Below, piece by piece: positions 56,569 to 61,643 of a DNA stretch of 64,000 nucleotides. The notes beneath the pieces are model-generated. The model was not told the DNA's origin. It made no database searches and saw only the letters and a list, made by a program, of their open reading frames with translations. Position numbers and translations under genes: made by a program. Numbering within the stretch: the first letter of the stretch is position 1; every line of letters begins with the position of its first letter. This DNA comes from Deltaproteobacteria bacterium. GTDB lineage: Bacteria; Myxococcota_A; Polyangia; DRWM01; JAAZOP01. The stretch lies in contig JACRCX010000054.1 in assembly GCA_016218815.1 (NCBI GenBank), positions 1 to 64,000 on the forward strand, written 5' to 3'.

Positions 56569-57360
56569 CTACTCTCGTTCGACGTAGCACTCCGGCCGGC
56601 GGTCGCCGAGGCGGTCGTTGCGGGGCGTGAGCGACTTGTCGCGCGCGAGCTCGAGCTCGAGGTCCACGGCCAGCGTCGCCTCCGCATCGGACGGCGCCCG
56701 GGCCAGCACCCGACCTTGCGGATCGACAATCTGGCTGCGTCCCGTGAACGCCAGCTCGACCCCGGCGCGGCGCTCGACGCCGACGCGGTTCGCGGTGAGA
56801 CAGAAGACGCCGTTCTCCAGCGCGCGCGTCACCATCGCGTCCTGGCAGAAGGGCAGGACCAGATTCGCAGGGTGGGCGATGACGTCCGCCCCGAGCAGCG
56901 CCAGCGAGCGCGCCGCCTCGGGAAACACCCAGTCGAAGCAGATCATCATCCCCAGCCGGTGGGCGCCGAGCGGGTCGACGCGGAACGGACCCGGGCCGGG
57001 GTCGAAGGTGACGCGCTCCCGATCGAAGAGGTGGACCTTGCGGTAGACGGAGAGGACGCCTTCGGGCGACAGGTGCGCCGCCGCGTTGTAGATCCGCTCG
57101 CCTTCGCGTTCCGCGAAGCCAATCACGACGCGTGTCGAGCGCTCGCGACAGAGGTCCACCAGCGCGCGCAGTGACGGTCCGTCCGCCGGCTCGGCCAGCG
57201 CCGAGCACTCGGCGCGGTCCGCGAAAAGGTATCCCGTGGTCGCCAGCTCCGGCAGCACCCACAGATCGGCGTCGGCCGATCGGACGGCGCGCTCGATGCG
57301 CGCCATGTTCGCCGCGACGTCACCGAACGCCGGCGAGAACTGGAAGATCGCTGCCCGCAT
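56569..57360 (-). CDS. carbon-nitrogen hydrolase (nitrilase superfamily amidase)
   Basis: A 263-residue cytoplasmic enzyme. The catalytic triad is visible: Glu in LWVLPELATTGYLF, Lys in YRKVHLFDRE and Cys in MMICFDWVFPEAAR. ANRVGVERRAGVELAFTGRSQIVDPQGRVLA is the usual C-terminal core. It should hydrolyse an amide, such as an omega-amide or carbamoyl compound; the substrate cannot be predicted. ATG 57360 starts at the first core strand (AAIFQFSPAFGD). It is divergent from the Kazal lipoprotein gene; the 109-base gap between them has a TATGCT hexamer (57440-57445) for the latter. Confidence 0.9.
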   Translation of the reverse strand: MRAAIFQFSPAFGDVAANMARIERAVRSADADLWVLPELATTGYLFADRAECSALAEPADGPSLRALVDLCRERSTRVVIGFAEREGERIYNAAAHLSPEGVLSVYRKVHLFDRERVTFDPGPGPFRVDPLGAHRLGMMICFDWVFPEAARSLALLGADVIAHPANLVLPFCQDAMVTRALENGVFCLTANRVGVERRAGVELAFTGRSQIVDPQGRVLARAPSDAEATLAVDLELELARDKSLTPRNDRLGDRRPECYVERE

Positions 57361-57469
57361 CCGCCGCTCCCGTTCGTCTCCCGCCGCCGGCGTCCCCCGA
57401 CCGGCCTCCACCACCCTACCGCATGGCCCCATCCCGCGCTATGCTCCCACCGGACGACGAGAGGAGGCC

Positions 57470-58330
57470 ATGATGACCAGAATCCTGTTTGGCTGCCTGC
57501 TTCTTGGCTTGTCAGTGGCCGCCTGCGGCGATCCCGGAAGCGAACCGTGCTCGCCGGCATGCGGCGCCTGCCAGGAGTGCTACCTGGGTGCGTGCGTGCC
57601 GATCGTCAACTGCGATGCGGGCGCCGAGGGCGACGGTGCCGCGGACGCCGATGGCGGTGCCGACGCGGACGCGGATGCGGGTGCGGACGCGGATGGGGAT
57701 GCGGATGCGGATGCGGACGCGGACGCGGATGCGGATGCGGATGCGGATGCGGACGCGGACGCGGATGCGGATGCGGATGCGGATGCGGACGCGGACGCGG
57801 ATGCGGATGCGGATGCGGACGCGGATGCGGATGCGGATGCGGACGCGGATGCGGATGCGGATGCGGACGCGGATGCGGACGGCGGGCGGACCTGTGGACC
57901 GTGGCCGGGGGGCGAGTGCGGGATGCGCGAGACCTGCGACATCCGCGGGTGCTGGCCGGGAGCTTCCGGTACCTGCGTGCCGACGCCGAACACCTGTCCC
58001 GACCTGTGGGCTCCCGTCTGCGGGTGCGACGGGAACACCTACTCGAACGACTGCGAGCGGATCGCGGCCGGGATGTCGCTGGACCACACGGGCGAGTGCG
58101 AGACGCCGCCGCCGCCGCCCCCGCCGCTGTGCTCGAGCGACGGCAGCGGATGGCTTTCTGCCGACGGGACGGTGATTTGCGACGCGACCTGCGGGGGTTG
58201 CCGGGCGGAGTGCCAATTCATCGGGTCGTACAGCGAGGGTTGGTACGCGGTCTGCATCGACTCGACGGTCCCCGGCGGCTGCGGCTGGCCCTTCGTCGAA
58301 GACCTCATCGAATGGACCGATTGCGGTTGA
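57470..58330 (+). CDS. lipoprotein with Asp-Ala tract and Kazal-type domain
   Basis: A 286-residue protein. The signal MMTRILFGCLLLGLSVAACG has a clear lipobox (Cys19). A Cys-rich segment (CSPACGACQECYLGAC) follows, then about 80 residues of almost pure Asp-Ala repeat (residues about 57-140), and a Kazal-type inhibitor-like domain with CPDLWAPVCGCDGNTYSNDC and a closing C. A Pro run leads to a final Cys-rich domain (CDATCGGCRAEC). The Asp-Ala tract would form an extended acidic stalk, presenting the Kazal domain away from the membrane, perhaps against foreign proteases. GAGGAGG precedes the first ATG. The last 19 bases overlap the next gene. Confidence 0.8.
   Translation: MMTRILFGCLLLGLSVAACGDPGSEPCSPACGACQECYLGACVPIVNCDAGAEGDGAADADGGADADADAGADADGDADADADADADADADADADADADADADADADADADADADADADADADADADADADADADADGGRTCGPWPGGECGMRETCDIRGCWPGASGTCVPTPNTCPDLWAPVCGCDGNTYSNDCERIAAGMSLDHTGECETPPPPPPPLCSSDGSGWLSADGTVICDATCGGCRAECQFIGSYSEGWYAVCIDSTVPGGCGWPFVEDLIEWTDCG
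57656..57888 (+). repeat. GCGGAY hexanucleotide repeat coding for Asp-Ala
   Basis: About 230 bases made of GCGGAT and GCGGAC units in a semi-regular order (runs of two or three GCGGAT between GCGGAC), with a few Gly interruptions at the left end. Being a 6-base unit it keeps frame when units are gained or lost. Confidence 0.9.
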
Positions 58331-59516: not shown

Positions 59517-59519
59517 ATT

Positions 59520-59552
59520 GGAACCACCGATGAACACCGATGGACACCGATG
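59520..59552 (+). repeat. GGAACCACCGATG-type tandem phrase, copy 3
   Basis: GGAACCACCGATG, AACACCGATG, GACACCGATG, beginning 4 bases after the fabG-like stop and lying just before the LolA-like gene. The frame of that gene runs through it (MNTDGHRC), exactly as in copy 2, though the true start is probably downstream. Confidence 0.8.
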
Positions 59553-59577
59553 CCGGAGGGGGTTCGCGGGGGACCGG

Positions 59578-60225
59578 GTGGTGGCGGCCGTGCGGACGAC
59601 CGAAAGACGGTCATTGGCACGGGTGGTTCTCTTTGCGGCGCTGGCCGCGGGGGCGATGCTTGCCGGCGCCGGGTGGGGCGAGAGCTGGGAGGCGATCCGC
59701 GAGGCAGCGGCGTCGGTGCGCACCGTGCGCGCGTCGTTCGTGCAGGAGAAGCGCCTGCCGATCCTGACGCGGCCGCTGCGGTCCGAGGGGACGTTCGCGT
59801 TCCGCCGGCCGGGGTCGATCCGCTGGGAGTACCGCATGCCGGTGGAGAGCGTGCTCCTGACCGACGGCGGGGACGTGCGGCGGTACACGAAGCGGGACGG
59901 CGAGTGGGCGGCCGAGGCGGGGGCCGGGATGGAGGCGATGCGGGTGGTGCTCGACGAGGTCGCGGCGTGGATGTCCGGGCGGTTCGACGAGAGCGCGGCA
60001 TTCGCCGCGACGTTGAGTCCGGGGACGCCGACGACGATCGAGCTGACACCGCGCGAGGAGGCGATTGGCCGCTTCGTGACGCGGATCCTTGTGACCCTCG
60101 CCGAGACACCGGGGGCCGTGGCGTCGATCGAGATTTTCGAAGGAGCCGAGGCTTCGACGCGCATCGAGTTCCAGGGCATGGAGCTGAACGTCGAGCTCGG
60201 CGACGCGCTCTTCACGGCTCCATGA
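59578..60225 (+). CDS. LolA-like outer-membrane lipoprotein carrier
   Basis: A 215-residue periplasmic protein. The signal TTERRSLARVVLFAALAAGAMLAGAG is followed by the LolA-type core VRASFVQEKRLPILTRPLRSEGTFAFRRPGSIRWEYRMP. The FxQEKxLxxLxRPLxSxG sequence is typical of the LolA homologues inside aryl-polyene clusters, which probably help carry the lipid product to the outer membrane. The start is GTG 59578 or 59581; the open frame extends back to 59518 through the GGAACCACCGATG repeat, so an upstream ATG (59530) cannot be excluded. Confidence 0.82.
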   Translation: MVAAVRTTERRSLARVVLFAALAAGAMLAGAGWGESWEAIREAAASVRTVRASFVQEKRLPILTRPLRSEGTFAFRRPGSIRWEYRMPVESVLLTDGGDVRRYTKRDGEWAAEAGAGMEAMRVVLDEVAAWMSGRFDESAAFAATLSPGTPTTIELTPREEAIGRFVTRILVTLAETPGAVASIEIFEGAEASTRIEFQGMELNVELGDALFTAP

Positions 60226-61253
60226 AGGCGGGGGTTCCGATCGCGGCCGTGCTGGCCCTGCTGGGCTGCGGGGGGCCGCCGCGGCTGGTGCCGGCGGCGC
60301 CGCAGGCGCGGGACGAGACGCTGGGGCGATGTCTCGGGGTGTTTCCGGCGCCCGACTTCCGTGCGGTGCACTCGATTTCGGCCACGTTGCCGGGCGGGGT
60401 GACGGGTGTGTTCCTGGGCGTGAGCGCGACGAGCGACGGGGGACGGTCGTTCCGGGGAAACCTGCTGTCGTTGGAGGGGATGGTCCTGGTGGATGTCGAG
60501 TGGTCGCCCGCAGGCCTCGTCGTGCACCGGGCGTTGCCTCCGCTGGACCGCGAAGGGTTTGCTGCGGGCATGGCGGCGGACATGCGACTGCTGCTGTTGG
60601 CGCCGGCCGGGCCGCCGCGAGAGATCGGCGAGGATGGCGATGGGCGCGCCGTTTGCCGGTGGGTGAGAGAGGACGGGGCCACCCAGGACATCGCGATCGC
60701 GGCGGACGGCGAGGGGTGGGCGACGACGGTGTGGGATGCGGGCGGCAGGAAGTCGCGCCAGGTTCGTGGCTCGGGTCCGATGCGCGACGGTTTCGCGTCG
60801 CGCATGGAGCTGACGGCGAGCGGGGAGAGCGCCTATTCGCTGGTGTTGGAGCTGGTCGACGTCGAGGCTGTGGGTGCCGGGGCGGGGGAGATGATTTCGG
60901 CGCCCCCCGCCCCCGCGGGCGGATGTCTTGACACCCCGCCGCGCGGCCCTCTATACGCGATCGGCGCGTCGGGTCGGGAGGGGGGCGCGCACGGGGAAAC
61001 GATGGATCGCGAAACCGCATTCGAGACCGTCCGCCGCTACTTGACCAAGCAGTTCGAGCTGCCGCCGGAGAAGGTGACGGCCGAGGCCCACCTCTTCGAG
61101 GAGCTGGCGCTGGACAGCATCGACGCGCTGGACATGATCAGCCTGATGGAGACCGAGCTGGGCATGGCCGTGGTCGAGGAGGAGCTGAAGACGATCCGCA
61201 CGGTCGAAGACGTGGTGCAGTACCTGGTGCGCCACGCGCCGCAGAAGAAGTGA
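60222..61253 (+). CDS. DUF3261-like lipoprotein, reading frame continuous with ACP
   Basis: ATG 60222 overlaps the LolA-like stop. MKAGVPIAAVLALLGCGGPP is a lipoprotein signal (Cys16). The next 200 residues (SATLPGGVTGVFLGVSAT, GNLLSLEGMVLVDVEWSPAGLVVHRALPPLDREGFAAGM, AADMRLLLLAPAGPP) resemble DUF3261 lipoproteins of aryl-polyene clusters. No stop codon follows: the frame runs through a linker (about residues 225-260) that contains a strong promoter, and into the whole acyl carrier protein. An exported ACP makes no sense, so either this is a sequencing or real one-base indel, or the tail is non-functional. Losing one G from the run at 60884-60888 would give a TGA at 60892-60894, ending the lipoprotein at about 223 residues. 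Confidence 0.65.
   Translation: MKAGVPIAAVLALLGCGGPPRLVPAAPQARDETLGRCLGVFPAPDFRAVHSISATLPGGVTGVFLGVSATSDGGRSFRGNLLSLEGMVLVDVEWSPAGLVVHRALPPLDREGFAAGMAADMRLLLLAPAGPPREIGEDGDGRAVCRWVREDGATQDIAIAADGEGWATTVWDAGGRKSRQVRGSGPMRDGFASRMELTASGESAYSLVLELVDVEAVGAGAGEMISAPPAPAGGCLDTPPRGPLYAIGASGREGGAHGETMDRETAFETVRRYLTKQFELPPEKVTAEAHLFEELALDSIDALDMISLMETELGMAVVEEELKTIRTVEDVVQYLVRHAPQKK
60928..60957 (+). promoter_or_regulatory. strong sigma-70 promoter upstream of the ACP gene
   Basis: A perfect TTGACA (60928-60933), an 18-base spacer and TATACG (60952-60957). Transcription would start near 60964, 38 bases before ATG 61002. It lies inside the frame that joins the lipoprotein to the ACP, which argues that the two are separate genes. 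Confidence 0.65.
61002..61253 (+). CDS. acyl carrier protein (separate start within the joined frame)
   Basis: An 83-residue protein. AFETVRRYLTKQFELPPEKVTAEAHLFEELALDSIDALDMISLMETELG carries the DSxD phosphopantetheine site (Ser in LALDSIDAL), and the remainder completes a four-helix ACP. It would hold the growing chain for the dehydratases, ketoreductase and ligase around it. It has its own promoter and ATG, and lies 6 bases before the next gene. It is annotated separately although the upstream frame is open into it. Confidence 0.88.
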   Translation: MDRETAFETVRRYLTKQFELPPEKVTAEAHLFEELALDSIDALDMISLMETELGMAVVEEELKTIRTVEDVVQYLVRHAPQKK

Positions 61254-61259
61254 CGGGCG

Positions 61260-61643
61260 ATGGGGGACGCCTGGCTGTCGCGGCCGGAGGTCGTCGCGTC
61301 GAACGAGGCCGGGGTGGAGGCCGTCGTGGACATCCCGGCCGACTCGCCGTGGTTCTCCGGCCATTTCCCCGGCCGCCCGGTCCTGCCCGGCGTCGTCTGG
61401 CTGTTCGCCGCCGCCGAGGTCGTCCGCGAGAGCGCCCGGCGCGAGGGGCGGCCGGTGGAGATCGGGGGCTTCCGCAACGTCCGCTTCCGGACGCGGGTCG
61501 AGGGTGCCGCGCGAGCCGTGATCGCCGTCGGGCCGGCGGCCGTCGCGCGTACGGGCGAGCTGCGCTTCGAGGTCCGGATCGGCGGCGAGTCGGTGTGCCG
61601 CGGGCTGATCGCCGTCCGCGAGCCTGCGGTACGCGAATCATGA
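61260..61643 (+). CDS. FabZ/FabA-like hotdog dehydratase (ApeI type)
   Basis: A 127-residue protein. VDIPADSPWFSGHFPGRPVLPGVVWLFAAAEVV has the His-containing HFPGxPVLPGV motif of FabA/FabZ enzymes. The acidic residue that FabZ has four positions after PGV is Phe here; the ApeI group of aryl-polyene clusters also deviates at this place (PGVVQLDW). It probably dehydrates 3-hydroxyacyl-ACP, but catalytic competence should be tested. It overlaps the ligase gene by 4 bases. Confidence 0.8.
   Translation: MGDAWLSRPEVVASNEAGVEAVVDIPADSPWFSGHFPGRPVLPGVVWLFAAAEVVRESARREGRPVEIGGFRNVRFRTRVEGAARAVIAVGPAAVARTGELRFEVRIGGESVCRGLIAVREPAVRES

Follow-up and report, generated by a model that had tools for sequence, protein, structure and literature searches.

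The lipoprotein and the acyl carrier protein (ACP) that share one open reading frame in the window, the whole 64,000-nucleotide stretch of DNA that was analysed, are probably (at a probability of roughly 0.7) encoded by two distinct genes of an aryl-polyene/flexirubin-type cluster that the loss of a stop codon has incidentally joined. The joined frame encodes 343 amino acids (60222-61253), has no internal stop and first closes at the TGA of 61251-61253. It opens at the lipoprotein ATG (60222), carries a lipobox-like LLGC in its lipoprotein part, crosses the sequence TTGACA-18-TATACG and ends in the 83 residues of the ACP, whose own ATG (61002) lies in the same frame. The coordinates that the initial annotation had given for this uninterrupted frame all agreed with the ORF listing and the sequence, and the promoter (60928-60957) and the separate ACP start that it had placed between the two genes were found there. 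Its statement that one G fewer in the run of five G (60884-60888) would create a stop at 60892 was confirmed by reading the shortened run, GGG GCG GGG AGA TGA, in which the stop occupies 60892-60894. The same frame is also open from an ATG at 59550, from which it passes through the LolA gene in the wrong frame. The features of the region are listed in Table 1.

Table 1. Features in and around the joined lipoprotein-ACP frame, in window coordinates
Feature	Position	Strand	Basis
LolA-like periplasmic carrier gene	59518-60225	+	Pfam LolA E 3.7e-16
ApeN-like lipoprotein	60222-60890	+	82% identical to L031:4001-4699
GC hairpin	60876-60916	+	13-nt arms, one mismatch, 15-nt loop
36 bases unalignable with the sister	60889-60924	+	Where the two genomes differ in length and the lipoprotein stop is missing
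Likely ACP promoter TTGACA-18-TATACG	60928-60957	+	29/30 bases as in the sister; genome pattern count
ACP leader	60958-61001	+	1-nt indel against the sister; GGGGA before the ATG
Acyl carrier protein (ACP)	61002-61253	+	Own ATG, 83 aa, ALDSID site

Comparison with the sister genome

The scan of genome contigs found one close relative, G001 (JACRCZ010000103.1, Deltaproteobacteria MAG NC_groundwater_1659; locus L031), with G001 and JACRCZ010000103.1 identical over the compared stretch, and the same-genus genomes G002 and G003 gave no match to the lipoprotein or the ACP. This sister has the same gene order as the window, proteins that are 82-93% identical and the same promoter, but its spacer between the lipoprotein and ACP genes is about 480 bp longer and includes a reverse-strand membrane-protein gene, and these two genes lie in different frames, with stops, whereas those of the window are joined. 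From the ATG to the end of the G-run, the alignment of the lipoprotein genes is gap-free (667 nt in both); the sister has six G at the run and reaches its lipoprotein TGA (L031:4697-4699) about 10 codons further on, followed by the reverse-strand gene for the small membrane protein, the promoter and an ACP gene (L031:5260-5511) to which that of the window is 93% identical. DNA matches to the sister cover 60700-60888 (80%) and 60925-61260 (93%), with nothing between them, and the stretch after the G-run measures about 516 bp in the sister versus 36 bases in the window. From ATG to ATG the distance is 1259 bases in the sister and 780 in the window, a net difference of 479.

Over 60925-61001, 67 of 78 alignment columns agree, and a 1-nt indel lies between promoter and ATG. 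Because of this indel in the leader, the frame of the sister's ACP is closed by a TGA inside TTGACA, where the window frame reads CTT GAC. Relative to the sister, the joining of the frames thus required two differences, the missing stop and the leader indel, and an indel that breaks the frame speaks against a coding linker. A weak third match between the joined protein and the sister includes the linker (residues 198-258, E 9.9e-4) and stems from the conserved promoter block, translated in a different frame from that of the sister's ACP. By eye, the window residues GEMISAPPAPA past the G-run loosely resemble the sister's tail GGVSGEPVAAP, but the sequence is of low complexity, and another frame looks about as similar.

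Against the sister, pairwise dN/dS came to 0.31 (lipoprotein) and 0.28 (ACP), with 0.17-0.31 as the range among the neighbours. In a separate count, substitutions were tallied by codon position for the lipoprotein and the ACP only. Both genes look kept as proteins, and the ratio is silent on their joining. The dS of the ACP against the sister was 0.11 and that of six neighbouring genes 0.28-0.43. Upstream, the ORF at 57236-58330, which encodes a Kazal domain and a long repeat of alternating Asp and Ala, is 84% identical in the sister.

The hairpin and the chance of an open frame

The G-run lies inside the left arm of the GC hairpin (arms 60876-60888 and 60904-60916), and the 36 unalignable bases include part of this structure. 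Arms of 13 nt were reached in one of 500 shuffles and in 6 of 1827 window tiles, and the best arm in the sister was 7. The hairpin is unusual only as an inverted repeat, its folding energy being ordinary: the surrounding 101 nt gave a z of 0.01, and 93 of 200 shuffles folded as well. When 60870-60935 was searched in its own genome, the only other matches had E values of 0.42 or worse.

The stretch 60870-61001 is 77% G+C, against 72% for the window. Of 5000 dinucleotide shuffles of this stretch, 63.9% left a given frame open, as did 72.6% of 20,000 stretches of that length drawn at random from the window. In 60870-61001 itself, the two remaining frames are closed. Once the stop is gone, the chance of a joined frame is 0.21-0.24 (the open rate multiplied by 1/3 for register), and the open frame does not exceed chance expectation.

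Promoter and leader of the ACP gene

The promoter consists of TTGACA at 60928-60933, an 18-nt spacer and TATACG at 60952-60957, and 29 of its 30 bases are identical in the sister. A pattern search of the genome for TTGACA-N16..19-TATAC returned four matches versus none for the reversed control, suggesting that TTGACA-18-TATACG is probably more than a chance occurrence. The three further sites (G000:C130:73156, C135:200805 and C149:7493) all start with TTGACAC and may represent a promoter type common in this organism. TTGACA-18-TATACG escaped the promoter scan, which accepts only second hexamers that end in T; the scan listed one weaker site, at 61111, inside the ACP gene. The terminator scan of 60000-61500 found none.

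Homologues in the class and the membrane-protein gene

A match to the lipoprotein was present in 12 of 317 genomes of the class, its own included. Nine of the eleven others were examined, the short matches in G124 (E 9.0e-4) and G307 (E 3.5e-4) being left out; besides the sister, these comprise eight homologues to which the window lipoprotein is 35-41% identical. The conserved part of the lipoprotein ends near residue 216 (about 60869), and what follows is a variable tail. The comparison of stop codons among orthologous clusters that the initial annotation had called for gave a uniform result, for all nine homologues stop within 27 residues of the end of the matched part (0, 0, 0, 0, 2, 6, 14, 17 or 27 residues past it). 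In four of the nine, the protein stops at LVD[HR]E, just where conservation ends, and the tail of the lipoprotein is therefore free to vary. When the joined protein was compared with 59 genomes, 48 gave some match, most of them to the ACP part only, and a single match over both parts occurred in its own genome only. Both parts stand on one contig in three others (G001, G053 and G031), and in none of these do they share a frame. The long fused frame that relatives might have carried was absent from all three, in which the genes lie apart, and the linker holds an indel relative to the sister.

The membrane-protein ORF of the sister (L031:4612-5058, minus strand) recurs in the clusters of G053 and G031, at 39% identity and behind the AMP ligase; it is found in the three clusters at changing places and is absent from the corresponding site of the window. 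Among 19 genomes, matches to the protein were found in G001 and in the window's own genome only, where a distant copy (G000:C13:15476-15799, 40% identical) lies on contig C13. This copy stands beside an RND-transporter-like and a radical-SAM-like ORF, both named by reading the sequence. Neither Pfam nor NCBIfam returned a match to the protein at E<=10. Since the gene is elsewhere in G053 and G031, it has moved, and its presence in those clusters, next to the AMP ligase, favours loss in the lineage of the window. Deletion in that lineage would be a simpler reading than insertion in the sister, although one sister cannot prove it.

Gene identities and related clusters

The genes run in the order SDR reductase (FabG, near FlxB), LolA, lipoprotein, ACP, FabA/FabZ-like dehydratase, AMP-dependent ligase and FabD-kind acyl-transferase. 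By profile matches, the FabG, LolA, ACP, dehydratase and AMP-ligase genes stand side by side, and the set, the FabD-kind acyl-transferase apart, appears to be of the kind seen in aryl-polyene/flexirubin clusters. Among flexirubin genes, FlxB and LolA2_flexi are strongly matched by the reductase and the LolA of the window, yet below the curated NCBIfam cut-offs (297.1 bits versus 340 for FlxB; E 3.5e-20 and 72.2 bits versus 125 for LolA2_flexi). The end of the LolA gene shares 4 bases (ATGA) with the start of the lipoprotein gene, and LolA adjoins the lipoprotein in nine, and FabG in eight, of the nine homologous loci examined. With the joined frame as query, the ACP matched Pfam PP-binding (PF00550, E 3.7e-9, 37.1 bits, cut-off 20.8); it also matched NCBIfam NF003757 (80.1 bits, cut-off 65). 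Its ALDSID, which we take to be the DS[LI] phosphopantetheine site, together with these scores above cut-off identifies it as an acyl carrier protein. The PHROGs search gave a weak ACP match only, and the viral contigs searched held no relative of the ACP.

The earlier label 'DUF3261-like' for the lipoprotein proved weak, as neither this protein nor that of the sister gave a Pfam match to PF11659 (DUF3261) at E<=10, and the G053 homologue reached E 0.15 and 12.4 bits, below the cut-off of 22.3. 'ApeN-like' accordingly rests on position, not on the DUF3261 profile. In the aryl polyene (APE) cluster of Escherichia coli CFT073 (apeA-R), the gene table of PMC8253772 names ApeQ as a FabG-type reductase, ApeL as LolA-like, ApeN as a DUF3261 LolB-like protein, ApeE/F as ACPs, ApeH as an acyl-ACP synthetase and ApeI/P as dehydratases. 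By predicted function, the window holds counterparts of ApeQ, L, N, E/F, I/P and H of that table, in a different gene order (PMC8253772). There, ApeN and the ACPs are separate entries, no malonyl-transferase like the FabD of the window is listed, and ApeN is assigned to DUF3261 (PMC8253772), whose profile the window lipoprotein fails to reach.

Proposed scenario and alternatives

Considering these results, the favoured reading of two incidentally joined genes may be set out as follows. The lipoprotein would be the end of a FabG-LolA-lipoprotein gene row and the ACP the start of the next, in a putative operon structure. Just past the G-run, the spacer of the window differs wholly from that of the sister, and the lipoprotein stop would have gone with this change of spacer; in the resulting stretch of 77% G+C the frame may have stayed open by chance, and the 1-nt difference in the leader would have brought the ACP into register. 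Provided that the sequence is correct, translation of the lipoprotein mRNA would run on through linker and ACP, giving the lipoprotein a passive extension of about 120 residues, presumably without function, which would be exported with it unless transcription stops earlier. The working cytoplasmic ACP would be expressed from the promoter and ATG of its own gene.

The initial annotation had offered a recent mutation, a sequencing or assembly indel and a length-variable G-run as origins of the frame. A recent mutation is the best supported of these, but not with the G-run as its place, since the sister has the same length through the run. The main rival, unlikely though to be taken seriously, is an error of sequencing or assembly at the hairpin (60876-60916), whether by one base too few or too many or by the collapse of a stretch, with the real gene stopping there. 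The hairpin marks the spot at which the two genomes differ, and short reads or their assembly could fail at it; the genome assembly is a draft of 161 contigs at 83% completeness, the G-run lies in one arm of a rare 13-nt GC inverted repeat, and four of the nine homologues end a few residues before the place at which one base fewer would give a stop. However, the sister not only matches the length through the G-run but also continues in frame for some 10 codons more, and the difference between the genomes far exceeds one base. It is very unlikely that the spacer of the window represents the old state, the sister having gained the membrane gene by insertion and the stop having been gained there or lost here by a point mutation. 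The movement of the membrane gene inferred from G053 and G031 would fit such an insertion, but the stops of all nine homologues near the end of the conserved part make the joined frame the odd state.

A functional fusion, or a G-run switch making lipoprotein and ACP jointly or apart, is highly improbable. The frame is open and in register, and the run has five G here and six in the sister; but within the linker lie a conserved promoter and an indel that breaks the frame relative to the sister, the genes lie apart in the three other genomes that have both, and export behind a lipoprotein signal would separate an ACP from its enzymes. Five G make a short run by the standards of phase-variable tracts, and the proposal of a length-variable switch gains no support from the sister, which aligns gap-free through the run and with six G still reads on to its stop. 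That the joined frame is expressed and useful, some of the ACP being made, always or according to G-run length, as the tail of an exported lipoprotein and so carrying acyl or polyene groups outside the cytoplasm, is barely credible.

The joining by itself matters little. In GC-rich DNA, a frame that runs uninterrupted across two genes is only weak evidence of a fusion, and gene callers may wrongly predict the lipoprotein and the ACP as a single protein. Expression of the joined frame, if it occurred, would place a carrier protein in an unusual location, outside the cytoplasm.
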